NCBI GenBank assembly: GCA_031276725.1
Contig: JAISMM010000012.1
Coordinates: 1 to 64,000, forward strand
Source of the DNA: Clostridiales bacterium
GTDB lineage: Bacteria; Bacillota; Clostridia; Christensenellales; Pumilibacteraceae
Direction of reading: 5' to 3'
Length of the DNA stretch: 64,000 nt
Shown here: positions 727 through 57,630 of the stretch, one piece after another
How positions within the stretch are numbered: the first letter of the stretch is position 1
Layout of the letters: each line of letters begins with the position of its first letter
Notes under the pieces: generated by a model
What the model was told of the DNA's origin: nothing
The model's input: only the letters and a program-made list of their open reading frames with translations
Databases searched by the model: none
Made by a program: the position numbers and the translations under genes

Positions 727-3492
727 CTAAATCATCGTATCCTCGTGCTCTTCGATTGCATACTTAACATACAAATTGATGTCCGGCGTTAAACTATCGG
801 CGCCGTTAAACTCGGTTGTGCAATCAAAATCGGTGTAAATAACGGCTCGGTAACCGATTTGAGCCGCGCCGTCCGCCTCGGCTTGAATATCGTCGAACGG
901 CAACAAGCCGTTTCCGTCGGCGATGAACCTACTAACCGCGCCGTCGGGGTAAAACAGAACGGCGGTGAACAGAGTCGTCCATTCGAGGAGCGGCGGCGGA
1001 TAATTAATCGCGCTAACGCCGTCGTATGTGTATATGCACACATATTCCTCGTCGTAGTACGATACGCTTTGAGCTATCAAGCCGTTTTCCTCGGTAAACT
1101 CGTGCGTAGAGCCGTATTCGTCCGTAACCGTATAAACGTTGCCCGTTTTTTGCACGCTTTCGGGGTTGTGAGTCGGCCCGTAGAATATCTCTTTTGCCTC
1201 AAATAAAGCCGTAAGATCTTCTATACGCGGGTTGTAGGTCTTTATCGCCGTCGTAGTGTCGCCGCCCGTCATCAACGTGTACTCGTAATTGCCGACGCGC
1301 CATTGCTCCGTCGACACGCCGTCGACGGTTATACGCATATAGTACTCTATCGGCATTGCTCCCGAAAAACTTATACTGCCAACCATTCCGCTATCTGCGG
1401 CGTGCATTCCCGTAACCCTTTGCGAGCTGCGGACGCACAGCGAACGGAATTGATCCGTATCGTCGTCGGGGTCGCCCCAGCAAGCGTATAGGTCCAAACC
1501 CGACGAATAATCGTCGGTAAAGTGATTAAAAACCATTAGCTTTGAAAAATCGTTCGTGTCGTCCGTCGCCCAGCCCATAAAAACCTTGCCGGAGTACCGC
1601 GGAATCACATCGCATACAATTTCCGCCGAAAGATTAGCTCTATAAAGGATCCTCCTCATTTCATCCGTGCCGTCATTAAAGTGGAATCTGACATCGACAA
1701 GCTCCCCGCCGTCCTGCGGAGCGTAAAACGCGTAAATAACGGTGTCGGCGTTAACCGGCTTATCAAAATCGTAGCTGACGAACGTCAACGGGTTCGTACT
1801 CCAACCTATGAAATCGCTGCCGTATCTTTCGGGCGCGACCTTCGGCTCGGCGGGCGCTTTACCGCCCGGCACCGCCTGCGGCTCAAAATTGTCGTTATAT
1901 TCGCCCGCGTCGAGGTTAAACGTTACCGTGTAAGAAGTCGGTTGCGTCGGCTCGCCCTCGATAAATTTTATGTAGAGCGTAATATCGTCGGTCAAGGGCA
2001 GGTCGGCGGCGACAATATCGGTAAGCGCGGAATCGGCGTAAATTTCGGCGGTATAGCCGTTTTGATATTTGTGGGCGCCGGAATCCGCGACGCTTTGAAG
2101 GTTAGATATACTTAGCGTATCCGTGTCGGGGTCGGCATAAACCGTTCCACGGTCGCCGTTGGGGTATGCCAACGTCGCCCCGAAGGTGCGGTCCCACTCA
2201 ATATCGGGAATGGGGTGAACGGCGTTCGAGCCGTCGTAAGTAATCGTAATCCGGGCGCCGTCATAAACCATAACTCTGTCGTCCTCGCCGGTAGATCGAA
2301 CGTCCACGACGGTTCCGTCGATCAGCGTAATTTTGCCGTCCGTTACCGTAAAGTCGTAACGAACCGTAATAGTGGTCAAATCGGATATGTCTTGCTCAAC
2401 TTCCGCCGTATAGCCGCCGTCCGTCCTTTCGGGATTCTGAACGGCGAGCATCATCGTAAGCAATTGACCCTTAACCGTATCGTCAAGACTGAATTTGGCG
2501 CGGGGAACGGGATGAACCCTTTTGGTCTTTGTTGTAAGCTCGCCGTCGAGCGTCGTATGCACATATTCGCAGCCGTCGGAGGTTAGCCACGCTTGCGTCC
2601 AAAACTCGCCGCCCGGCTCTGCGCCGCCCTCCCCCGGTTCGCTTGCGACGCCCGCGCTCTCGCCGGAATCGTTCGCGTCGGGCTGCGGATTCACCGGCAT
2701 TGCGGAAGGAATCTTTTGGTAAAACGCCGCCGCCGCGCCGTTTTTATAGTCCGCCGCCATAACGATCGACGTATCGTCGTCGACAAACGACTCTACATAA
2801 ATGCCCGTCATAAGCGGCGCGCTCGTAACGGCCGCCGAGCGGAACGAGTCCGCGGCGTTACCGGCGTCGCCCCAAACGGCATAAAGCGTCGTATCGGTTA
2901 AAAAATTAGCCGTGAACAGCACGCCGCTAAAACCGGCGGCGGGACTTGCCGCCCAGCCGAGAAAAACCTTGCCGTCCTTTTGCGGAACCGCGCCGTAAAA
3001 AATCATCGAGTTGCCCGCTCTGTACCGCTGTGCCGACGGCGCACCGGCGCCGCCGTTCGCGTCAAACGAAACGTCGATCAAGTCCCCGCCCTTGTTCGCC
3101 CAATACGCGTAAACCGTCGTATCGGCGGTTATCGGCGCGTCAAAGTCGAACGCGGCGAGCGCGAGCGGCGTTACGCTCCAACCCGCAAAGTCGCTCCCGT
3201 ACCTGACCGGGTCGGCGGAGGGCTTTGCCGCCTTTGCTCCCTCCCCGACCGTCTGCGGCGCAAGCGCGCCGCCGCCGCCGTCAAGGTCGAACGTTACCGT
3301 ATAAGTAACCTTCGTTTCACCGCCGCCGCCGTCTTGGGTGCCGTCCGTATCGCCGCCGTTTTGTTCCCCGCCGGGATCGTTGCCGGGAACGACGCCGCCG
3401 TTCGTCTTCAAATCACCGCAGCCGACGGCCCCGAACGCGAACACAATCGCCGCCAAAAGCGCGACCGCAATTCTGATAAACCTGCCTTTCAT
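727..3492 (-). CDS. Surface lipoprotein with InlB B-type repeats
   Basis: 921 residues. The N-terminus is a lipoprotein signal (hydrophobic residues 8-23, lipobox GAVGC, Cys25), followed by a Gly/Asp/Gln-rich linker. Several InlB-B (Listeria-Bacteroides, Flg_new) repeats follow, recognised by YTVTFDLDGG..., ...YGSDFAGW... and ...TTVYAYW. The protein is internally duplicated: residues about 60-515 and 520-915 each contain two InlB-type repeats, a longer unknown module beginning FRS, and a closing module with EW...F.A.L.YP.G. InlB-type repeats are known from cell-surface proteins and probably act in adhesion; the role here is inferred. Start is ATG with a strong AGGAGG at 3500-3505. Its long leader contains a terminator-like hairpin and a G9 tract. 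Confidence 0.85.
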   Translation of the reverse strand: MKGRFIRIAVALLAAIVFAFGAVGCGDLKTNGGVVPGNDPGGEQNGGDTDGTQDGGGGETKVTYTVTFDLDGGGGALAPQTVGEGAKAAKPSADPVRYGSDFAGWSVTPLALAAFDFDAPITADTTVYAYWANKGGDLIDVSFDANGGAGAPSAQRYRAGNSMIFYGAVPQKDGKVFLGWAASPAAGFSGVLFTANFLTDTTLYAVWGDAGNAADSFRSAAVTSAPLMTGIYVESFVDDDTSIVMAADYKNGAAAAFYQKIPSAMPVNPQPDANDSGESAGVASEPGEGGAEPGGEFWTQAWLTSDGCEYVHTTLDGELTTKTKRVHPVPRAKFSLDDTVKGQLLTMMLAVQNPERTDGGYTAEVEQDISDLTTITVRYDFTVTDGKITLIDGTVVDVRSTGEDDRVMVYDGARITITYDGSNAVHPIPDIEWDRTFGATLAYPNGDRGTVYADPDTDTLSISNLQSVADSGAHKYQNGYTAEIYADSALTDIVAADLPLTDDITLYIKFIEGEPTQPTSYTVTFNLDAGEYNDNFEPQAVPGGKAPAEPKVAPERYGSDFIGWSTNPLTFVSYDFDKPVNADTVIYAFYAPQDGGELVDVRFHFNDGTDEMRRILYRANLSAEIVCDVIPRYSGKVFMGWATDDTNDFSKLMVFNHFTDDYSSGLDLYACWGDPDDDTDQFRSLCVRSSQRVTGMHAADSGMVGSISFSGAMPIEYYMRITVDGVSTEQWRVGNYEYTLMTGGDTTTAIKTYNPRIEDLTALFEAKEIFYGPTHNPESVQKTGNVYTVTDEYGSTHEFTEENGLIAQSVSYYDEEYVCIYTYDGVSAINYPPPLLEWTTLFTAVLFYPDGAVSRFIADGNGLLPFDDIQAEADGAAQIGYRAVIYTDFDCTTEFNGADSLTPDINLYVKYAIEEHEDTMI

Positions 3493-3589
3493 AAATATGT
3501 CCTCCTTGAATTTATAAAATTTTTACACAAAAAAACGTACGGCAAAACGGGCTTACGAAAGCCCGGTCGAGCGGACTCTCGTAAACCCG

Positions 3590-3628
3590 AAAATAAAAAA
3601 GCCGAACGACAAAAAATTATCGTTCGAC
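3590..3628 (-). terminator. Rho-independent terminator or attenuator hairpin
   Basis: On the minus strand a 9-bp stem (arms 3620-3628 and 3601-3609, one G-U pair, loop about 10 nt) is followed by TTTTTTATTTT. It can end transcription from rplQ. It also lies downstream of the promoter at 3734-3762, so it would act as an attenuator for the lipoprotein gene. Confidence 0.75.
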
Positions 3629-3671
3629 TTATGCGCAAACTACGGGTAAAAGAGGATACTCCTAAATGTAT

Positions 3672-3680
3672 CCCCCCCCC
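3672..3680 (-). repeat. G9 homopolymer in lipoprotein leader
   Basis: Nine consecutive G on the minus strand (C9 on plus), between the promoter at 3734-3762 and the terminator-like hairpin at 3590-3628. Such tracts are prone to slipped-strand length change. Confidence 0.8.
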
Positions 3681-3733
3681 TGCGTAACTTTGAGTTCATT
3701 CATTTGCGTTTTTGCCACTTTGACCATACGTTT

Positions 3734-3762
3734 ATTGTACACCGTTTTTGGCAATTTGGCAA
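3734..3762 (-). promoter_or_regulatory. Sigma-A type promoter for the InlB-repeat lipoprotein
   Basis: TTGCCA (3762-3757), a 17-nt spacer, then TACAAT (3739-3734) on the minus strand. The predicted transcript starts near 3727 and has a leader of about 235 nt before the ATG at 3492. Confidence 0.7.
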
Positions 3763-3828
3763 GCGTTTTTACACACTTTTTTTATTTTTTTGATTTTGCC
3801 GGTCGGGGCGGAGAGGAATTATTGATTA

Positions 3829-4374
3829 TTAAACCAACTCGATTAGGGCTTTTTCGGCGGCGTCGCCGCGGCGAAAACCCATTTTGAGGACGCGGGTGTA
3901 ACCGCCGCCCGTGCCTACGTCGGCGGCGCGGCGGGCGTAGCGGGGGGCGTACTCGTTGAAGATTTTTTCGATAAGCGGGTGGCGGATATGCTCGGTGCGG
4001 CCCCGGAAGGCGGCGGCGGTCTCCTTTTGCTTACGCTGTTCTTGGACGTCGTAGACGGTAGCCATAATGCGGCGGCGCGCCGCCAGCTTTTTGGGCCCGT
4101 CGTTGACGATTTCGACCTTGACCTCGCGTTCCGTTTCGGTAACGACGCCTTTCTTGTCCTTGACTTTTTCGTGCTTGATGCGCGTTTCGACCTTTTTTAC
4201 GGTGTCGGTGTACGACTTGACCGCCATAGTCAAAAGCTTGTCGGCCAAACGGCTGACTTCCTTAGCGCGGTCGAAAGTGGTTTCTATTTTGCCGTTCCAC
4301 AAAAGGGCGGTAACCTGATTCCTAAGTAACGCCTTTCTTTGGTCGGTGGGTTTTCCTAATTTACGTTGATTCAT
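3829..4374 (-). CDS. rplQ: 50S ribosomal protein L17, with insertion
   Basis: Large-subunit protein L17, last gene of the alpha operon. Residues 1-55 (MNQRKLGKPTDQRKALLRNQ...) and the C-terminal part (GGGYTRVLKMGFRRGDAAEKALIELV) are typical. At 181 residues it is well above the usual 115-130. The excess is a charged insertion at about residues 58-125, rich in Lys, Glu and Val, where shorter homologues run straight on. The gene lies 210 nt downstream of rpoA, an unusually wide gap occupied by an inverted-repeat element. It is followed by a terminator at 3590-3628. Confidence 0.95.
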   Translation of the reverse strand: MNQRKLGKPTDQRKALLRNQVTALLWNGKIETTFDRAKEVSRLADKLLTMAVKSYTDTVKKVETRIKHEKVKDKKGVVTETEREVKVEIVNDGPKKLAARRRIMATVYDVQEQRKQKETAAAFRGRTEHIRHPLIEKIFNEYAPRYARRAADVGTGGGYTRVLKMGFRRGDAAEKALIELV

Positions 4375-56530: not shown

Positions 56531-57553
56531 TTAATACGCCTCCGCAAGCTCGGCGGCGGTATACTTTGCGTTCCCGCCTTTACGCGTCAAAATAGCTTTT
56601 TCGGACGCTCTTTCGGGCGTCAAAACGGCGGGTATAAGTCCCTTGATAGGTATCATCGCCTTAACGTCCGCAAGCGCAACGGCGTCGCCGAAAGCGAGCG
56701 CGTAGCGGCCCGACCCGGCGGGTTGCGTTACTATGTATTGACCCGCCAAAATTTTTACGTTTCTGTTCGACGACCAAAGCGCGTAAGCCGCTTCGGCGTC
56801 GTTTCGGTTTTCGATATACGCGTATTCCAGAACCGCTTTCGACGCGGTGTCCGCGATATACACGCCGTACGTGCTGTCCGAATATACGCTTACCCTATCC
56901 AAAACGGCGGCGGCCTTTTGCGCGATAAACAACGCGCCGTCGCCGCCCGCGCCCACCGGCGCAAGGTTTGTAACGCCGTTTTTGTTTAGGTCGACAATCT
57001 TCAAATTATGAATATCGACGGTAACGTTTTCGCCCACGATTTGAACCGCGCCGTAAATTTCGTTGCCGTTGCCTAAAATCGTAACGCTTCTTTCAATGGA
57101 AAGCGGTTCGCTTAAAACAATGTCGCTCTCGATTGAAATCATATCGAGGCTCGAATAATGAACCGCGACTATAAGCTCCTGATAGTCGTCGACGCGGTAT
57201 ATAAGGTTATCGTACACGGGCGCGTCGCCCGTGTCGCCTTTCTCGCCTTGTGCGCCCGGCGCTCCGGCGTCGCCCTTCGGGCCTTGCGCGCCCGACTCTC
57301 CGGTATCGCCCTTCGGGCCTTGTGCGCCGGACTCTCCGGTATCGCCTTTGTCGCCCTTATCGCCCTTTAACGAGGCAAGCCACTCGTCGAGAGTTCCGTC
57401 AAAACCGTTATCGACGGCAAGCTCGTAAGCCGACTTTCCGTCCGCGCCCGACGTAGACAAAGCGTCCTCGCACCCGGAAAAAGCGAACACCGCCGACAGA
57501 CAAATCGCCATCCACAGTACGACCGACGTTTTTTGCAAACCTTTCTTGAACAT
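56531..57553 (-). CDS. Collagen-like lipoprotein with beta-helix domain
   Basis: 340 residues from the ATG at 57553 (AAGGAGGAT upstream); a longer frame upstream reads through repeats and lacks support. Lipobox FSGC (Cys28). GKSAYELAVDNGFDGTLDEWLASLKG precedes 16 uninterrupted Gly-X-Y triplets (about 64-111, GDKGDKGDTGESGAQGPKG...), a pattern common in bacterial collagen-like proteins. The rest (about 125-300) looks like a right-handed parallel beta helix. Surface-exposed; role unknown. A G9 tract lies in its promoter. Confidence 0.88.
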   Translation of the reverse strand: MFKKGLQKTSVVLWMAICLSAVFAFSGCEDALSTSGADGKSAYELAVDNGFDGTLDEWLASLKGDKGDKGDTGESGAQGPKGDTGESGAQGPKGDAGAPGAQGEKGDTGDAPVYDNLIYRVDDYQELIVAVHYSSLDMISIESDIVLSEPLSIERSVTILGNGNEIYGAVQIVGENVTVDIHNLKIVDLNKNGVTNLAPVGAGGDGALFIAQKAAAVLDRVSVYSDSTYGVYIADTASKAVLEYAYIENRNDAEAAYALWSSNRNVKILAGQYIVTQPAGSGRYALAFGDAVALADVKAMIPIKGLIPAVLTPERASEKAILTRKGGNAKYTAAELAEAY

Positions 57554-57602: not shown

Positions 57603-57630
57603 ATTCTACCCCCCCCCGCCGTTTTGTCAA
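57603..57630 (-). promoter_or_regulatory. Promoter of the collagen-like lipoprotein with G9 in the spacer
   Basis: TTGACA (57630-57625), 16-nt spacer, TAGAAT (57608-57603) on minus. The spacer contains nine consecutive G (57617-57609). Slippage by one G would give the optimal 17-nt spacing. Confidence 0.8.

Follow-up and report, generated by a model that had tools for sequence, protein, structure and literature searches.

A G tract in a short leader reading frame as a candidate phase-variable attenuator of lipoprotein genes in a Pumilibacteraceae genome

In the window, that is, the whole stretch of 64,000 nucleotides that was analysed, the leader in front of an InlB-repeat lipoprotein gene comprises a promoter, a short open reading frame (ORF) with a G9 tract inside it and an intrinsic terminator; the module formed by these elements is repeated in the genome, the frame geometry of the ORF changes with the length of the tract, and the predicted terminator fold is independent of that length. 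On this basis, we tentatively interpret the leader as a phase-variable attenuator, although the full mechanism, including slippage, leaderless translation and antitermination by the ribosome, is in our estimate plausible but somewhat short of probable. Transcripts would start at or beside the AUG of the short leader ORF, which would be translated from this leaderless AUG, and the tract would gain or lose G residues by slipped-strand replication. With nine G residues, the ribosome would stop 31 nt ahead of the first terminator, the terminator would form, and the lipoprotein would be mostly off. With one G more or fewer, the frame would end within 9 nt of the terminator or would enter or pass it, and a ribosome holding the terminator stem open would turn the gene on.

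The elements of the leader, its lipoprotein gene and the promoter at 57603-57630 lie on the reverse strand of the window. A consensus scan placed the promoter TTGCCA-17-TACAAT (10 of 12 matches) at 3734-3762, which was the sole match of the scan in 3400-3900 (shuffle mean, 0.4). The short leader ORF (3662-3727), with 21 codons that end in GGGYI and are followed by TAG, starts from an ATG 6 nt past the -10 hexamer, and the G9 tract (3672-3680) lies within it, mainly as Gly codons. In the minimum-energy fold, the G tract provides the 5' arm of a hairpin (3648-3679) that carries the stop codon in its loop. This hairpin is followed by the first intrinsic terminator (3599-3630), a 14-pair stem and a T run common to other module copies, and by a second hairpin (3548-3589; 18 bp, then four T) outside the aligned module. 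From the predicted start near 3727 to the lipoprotein ATG at 3492, the leader measures 235 nt, and a 201-nt leader sequence folded with a z score of -7.25, with none of 200 shuffles as good. The 921-residue lipoprotein (727-3492) begins with a lipobox-like N-terminus and carries three Listeria-Bacteroides (InlB-type) repeats. The first-pass annotation, which described a G9 tract in a leader of about 235 nt between a good promoter and an intrinsic terminator, was thus correct on all three elements (3672-3680, 3762-3734 and 3630-3599, respectively); what it overlooked is the short ORF (3727-3662) around the tract and the recurrence of the module elsewhere in the genome.

A similarity search of the same genome (1.88 Mb in 92 contigs), together with a covariance model, delimited the repeated module of promoter, short ORF with G tract and terminator at 3592-3797 in the window. 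The leader gave strong matches at three other loci (C24, C80 and C30; 80-83% identity) and weaker ones at two more (C59 and C49). The covariance model, made from five copies, recovers C24, C80, the window copy, C30 and C59 in this genome, and C49 is a diverged sixth copy beyond those five. The promoter, the ATG, a G8 or G9 tract and the terminator were present ahead of the gene in all six copies, and terminator hairpins were seen in each. Lipoprotein genes stand downstream of five of the six copies: those at the window, C24 and C30 encode InlB-repeat lipoproteins, that at C59 encodes another lipoprotein with a weak fn3 match below the cutoff, and that at C49 encodes yet another with GLUG; the gene at C80 encodes a 173-residue protein without a Pfam match. 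Across the copies, 39-102 nt separate the T run of the first terminator from the gene start, and therefore the gene seems to depend on read-through; as judged from these sequences, there is little or no room for another promoter between the terminator and the gene.

Such an arrangement could also be a by-product of gene duplication, in which duplicated lipoprotein genes carry the leader along, the terminator also ends a ribosomal-protein operon, and the tract is inert. This explanation is favoured by the InlB-repeat lipoproteins shared by the window, C30 and C24, by the end of rplQ at 3829, directly upstream of the leader, and by the abundance of G runs in the genome; the upstream gene is presumably rplQ, the last of a ribosomal-protein run, as judged from sequence and gene order. 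However, the genes at C80, C59 and C49 do not encode InlB-repeat proteins, and the module is therefore not tied to one gene family; moreover, G8 or G9 was kept in all six copies while the flanks diverged. We consequently regard a by-product as unlikely. In a near relative (L173), where rplQ is 87% identical, the 1.5 kb past rplQ lacks any G8 run, and another gene is the longest ORF called in it.

The attenuator reading depends on the short ORF. In all six copies, the ATG stands 6 nt past the -10 hexamer (the positions for C59 and C49 were read by eye from the printed sequences), and each short frame enters the G tract, so that G9 or G8 lies inside the ORF throughout. No Shine-Dalgarno site for the short ORF was found, which counts against the attenuator reading; a leaderless start, from an ATG at the expected start of transcription, is assumed. 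The ORFs of the window, C24, C80 and C30 have 20-21 residues that end in GGGYI, and their stop codons fall in the loop of the G-tract hairpin. In all five aligned copies, the distance from the ATG to a TAC is a multiple of three, despite indels. In the alignment, which was read by hand, nothing indicated that the leader peptide is under selection; most substitutions between the copies change the amino acid, which speaks against a functional peptide.

The frame geometry was expressed as the number of nucleotides from the stop codon to the first base of the first terminator, negative values being inside or past it. In the window, the frame stops 31 nt before the first terminator with the native G9 and 9 nt before it with G8, and with G10 it runs on across both hairpins and ends over the start codon of the lipoprotein. 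The values for C24 are 9 (G8), 31 (G9, native) and -73 (G10), and those for both C80 and C30 are -2 (G8), 32 (G9, native) and 9 (G10). In these four closest copies, G9 thus stops the frame 31-32 nt before the first terminator, and one G more or fewer brings the frame to within 9 nt of the terminator, into it or through it. No register of C80 or C30 runs wholly through the terminator, the stops being at the base of the stem or 9 nt before it. The values for C59 are 32 (G7), -42 (G8, native) and -47 (G9), and those for C49 are 37 (G8), -31 (G9, native) and 42 (G10). From these figures, the four closest copies are in a register that should terminate, and C59 and C49 should be in a read-through register. 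An early-stop register and a register that ends at or in the terminator are both available in all six copies. When the spacers were shuffled, both kinds of register were still available in 51-75% of the sequences, indicating that this geometry is not rare.

The predicted folding of the leader did not respond to the tract. The pairing of the 5' arm of the terminator was constant from G6 to G12 in the four leaders tested (1.00 for the window, 0.81 for C24, 0.99 for C80 and 0.85 for C30), and attenuation by tract length through folding only was rejected on this ground. Tract-length-dependent attenuation, which the first-pass annotation had considered possible, accordingly stands as the best candidate reading, whereas a lever that acts via the fold does not; tract length would more likely act on the frame in which the leader ORF is read than on RNA folding.

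The folds themselves raise the question of an RNA regulator that binds a ligand or a protein and ends in a terminator, for which the G tract would supply the strong 5' arm of a hairpin and tract length would matter little. Five of the six copies fold strongly (z of -2.7 to -4.9), most copies are predicted to form the G-tract hairpin, and a peptide without a sign of selection would also suit such a regulator. On the other hand, C49 keeps G9, the ATG position and the terminator, yet folds no better than its shuffles (z of -0.79); the covariation is slight (covariation term, -0.2; two-sided changes in 5 of 32 pairs); inspection by eye revealed no mutually exclusive antiterminator; and an Rfam search of the window gave no match at the gathering score. 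These observations make an RNA regulator an improbable account of the leader. The best sub-threshold Rfam match, SR6_antitoxin, scored 35.3 bits against a threshold of 55 and was rejected.

A DNA search of 101 genomes found no copy of the module in another genome; the matches in ten foreign genomes were bare promoter stretches and one 21-nt match in other sequence. Four of the foreign promoter-stretch matches precede ctsR-like genes. The start of the module (3725-3717) reads GGTCAAA, matching the CtsR half-site, and the promoters of ctsR-like genes among the cross-species matches to the module start carry GGTCAAA-GAA-AGTCAAA. The covariance search of 151 genomes gave a match at E <= 0.5 in 25 of them, this genome included, and no module copy was seen among the 15 judged of the 30 matches outside this genome. 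An exact pattern had no match in a contig collection, from which records near the window are possibly absent.

A pattern for the layout, irrespective of sequence similarity, matched only this genome and G022 among 151 genomes, with one match in the reversed control. The G022 locus (L147), which belongs to another genus, has a similar layout without sequence similarity, in the order TTGACA, TATAAT, an ATG after 6 nt, G9 in frame, a terminator and a membrane-protein gene; its native frame reaches a stop inside the terminator, and a different register has one about 50 nt upstream of the terminator. A looser layout pattern was matched in 12 of 396 genomes, as compared with 8 with matches to the reversed control, and because the layout is not enriched over the control in these 396 genomes, that of L147 may be due to chance. 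Among the ten foreign loci beyond G022 that the looser pattern yielded, L299 (G016) has a comparable terminator and no clear -35 hexamer, and the rest were unconvincing.

The second G9 tract of the window (57609-57617) is a different device from the leader tract, as it occupies the spacer of a promoter (TTGACA-16-TAGAAT; 57603-57630) before a lipoprotein gene that starts at 57553. The first-pass annotation had placed the same homopolymer upstream of both surface lipoproteins and had taken this as an argument against chance. Both tracts are present, whereas their architectures are two, the second being a promoter spacer and not a leader. The argument is also weak numerically: G8 matches within the window, counted with overlap, number 4, whereas shuffles average 2.6 and a count of 4 is reached in 25 of 100 of them. 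In Neisseria, porA and opc are switched by poly-G in the promoter spacer. The tract at 57609-57617, a G run between -35 and -10, resembles those switches, and the leader tract at 3672-3680, being outside the promoter, differs from them.

The spacer form is widespread in this order. The pattern TTGACA, at least seven G residues and TANNNT occurred in 53 of 151 genomes, this one included, with about 246 overlapping matches, and the reversed-pattern control gave 3 matches in 3 of the 151. It was found in all four named genomes tested (Pumilibacter intestinalis, P. muris, Anaerocaecibacter muris and the MAG RACS_047), and Pumilibacter and Anaerocaecibacter belong to Pumilibacteraceae. This genome probably belongs there too, since G018, which is listed in its family, shares its match coordinates with A. 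muris. In the two Pumilibacter genomes, 5 of 14 poly-G spacer promoters precede a lipoprotein gene, as judged by eye from the N-termini. In another genome (G008), all six such promoters (L287-L292) are nearly the same and precede members of one paralogous lipoprotein family; their tracts of G8, G9 or G10 set the spacer at 16, 17 or 18, and at least four of these six loci are near contig ends. Other poly-G spacer promoters precede ABC transporter ATPases and further genes. Exact G9 runs occurred in 46 of 61 genomes, at 20 or more in several genera and at none in others.

The G runs of this genome were also counted. Runs of exactly 7, 8, 9 and 10 G number 29, 28, 31 and 2, respectively, which is an unusual spectrum, flat and then collapsing, whereas each base added to a run, up to length 6, lowers the count in the window by a factor of 0.14-0.29. 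The cliff at G10 may arise from assembly error. Runs of G11 and G13 that lie at the ends of contigs (L011, L013 and L043) were omitted as likely assembly artefacts; those at L013 and L043 (11-13 G) have one flank in common, in opposite orientations, which gives them the look of such artefacts. In the window, the intergenic stretch 1-560 holds an imperfect tandem repeat of about 75 bp in four copies (61-100% identity), and words similar to it surround tracts close to the ends of other contigs (L011, L024 and L116).

The location of the runs was assessed for 27 of the 29 G7 runs (two at contig ends were omitted), all 28 G8 runs and all 31 G9 runs. A run lay near or in the start of a lipoprotein gene for 10 of 31 G9, 2 of 28 G8 and 2 of 27 G7 runs, as compared with 4.2% of random window positions. 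The difference between G9 (10/31) and G7 plus G8 (4/55) gave a Fisher p of 0.005, and 0.014 when the leader family was counted once (7/27 vs 3/54). These automatic counts were kept, although the rule overlooked some lipoproteins that are evident by eye (e.g., L029, L030, L034 and L035) and included a doubtful G7 case (L092). The automatic lipoprotein tag of the L040 gene is not believed. For the refuting condition named in the first-pass annotation, that such tracts would be equally common upstream of housekeeping genes, the outcome is thus mixed: G9 is enriched at lipoproteins, whereas it also stands at other genes, including those for an ABC transporter ATPase, a protein that we take from its sequence to be DegV-like, and the C80 protein.

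In three surface-protein genes the frame is lost at a tract of G or C, with a continuing frame that is open in another register: the C59 lipoprotein (L005), an InlB-type lipoprotein (L033, C65) and a BspA-like protein (L015, C14), all named by eye. These genes fit slippage and could include assembly error. Together, the G-run spectrum and the out-of-frame genes point to slippage in this genome. At four loci (L028, L030, L042 and L012), G9 or C9 in the coding sequence just past the lipobox cysteine gives Gly or Pro runs, and such tracts would be another possible on/off site.

A frame-shifting leader of this kind has a precedent in pil1 of Streptococcus gallolyticus. There, GCAGA repeats in the leader ORF shift its frame; the peptide made by default ends 39-49 nt ahead of a premature terminator, and that of out-of-frame variants ends at the terminator or within it, upon which transcription rises (PMC3894217). 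Like pil1 and pil3, the module has a simple repeat in a leader ORF and a premature terminator before a surface-structure gene, with one register that stops well upstream of the terminator and others that stop at or in it (PMC3894217). Unlike them, it has poly-G instead of GCAGA and no ribosome binding site, it is a prediction from sequence, and it stands in several copies before different genes, with lipoproteins rather than pili as products. The logic is that of pil1, with a homopolymer as the repeat.

A G repeat of similar length in the mRNA leader of a surface-related gene is described for tlpB of Helicobacter pylori, where repeat length sets the control by the small RNA RepG, which is strongest at 9-12 G (PMC8295292). 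By analogy, a small RNA with a C/U-rich loop could pair with the G tract, whose length would tune repression, but the tract here lies ahead of a terminator rather than beside the start of the gene, and we find this very doubtful. The repeat of tlpB is read in trans by a small RNA (PMC8295292), and the repeat here lies in an ORF before a terminator. In the Gram-positive gut commensal Bifidobacterium breve, an intragenic G tract switches pilus genes (PMC9187656). The likeness to the attenuator proposed here lies in poly-G slippage, which here would be predicted, and in surface structures; the difference is that the tract of B. breve is in a structural gene (PMC9187656) and that of the module in a leader with a terminator.

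In the open-licence PMC literature, among the entries listed on homopolymer tracts in attenuators or leader peptides and on phase variation by poly-G or other homopolymers in Clostridia, the order or Pumilibacteraceae, none described the present system. Homopolymer-tract phase variation is known mainly from small-genome Gram-negative pathogens. From the present sequence, many candidate G-tract switches are indicated in each genome of a clostridial family, as is an attenuator whose leader ORF takes its frame from the tract; cultured relatives, Pumilibacter muris, P. intestinalis and Anaerocaecibacter muris, carry the promoter form. In the broader picture, which we put forward with greater reserve than the attenuator itself, one Clostridia species would have a portable poly-G attenuator cassette ahead of several unrelated surface genes, and the family to which it belongs, Pumilibacteraceae, may make wide use of poly-G contingency loci, in leaders and coding regions as well as in promoter spacers; each cell would thereby display a random combination of lipoproteins.
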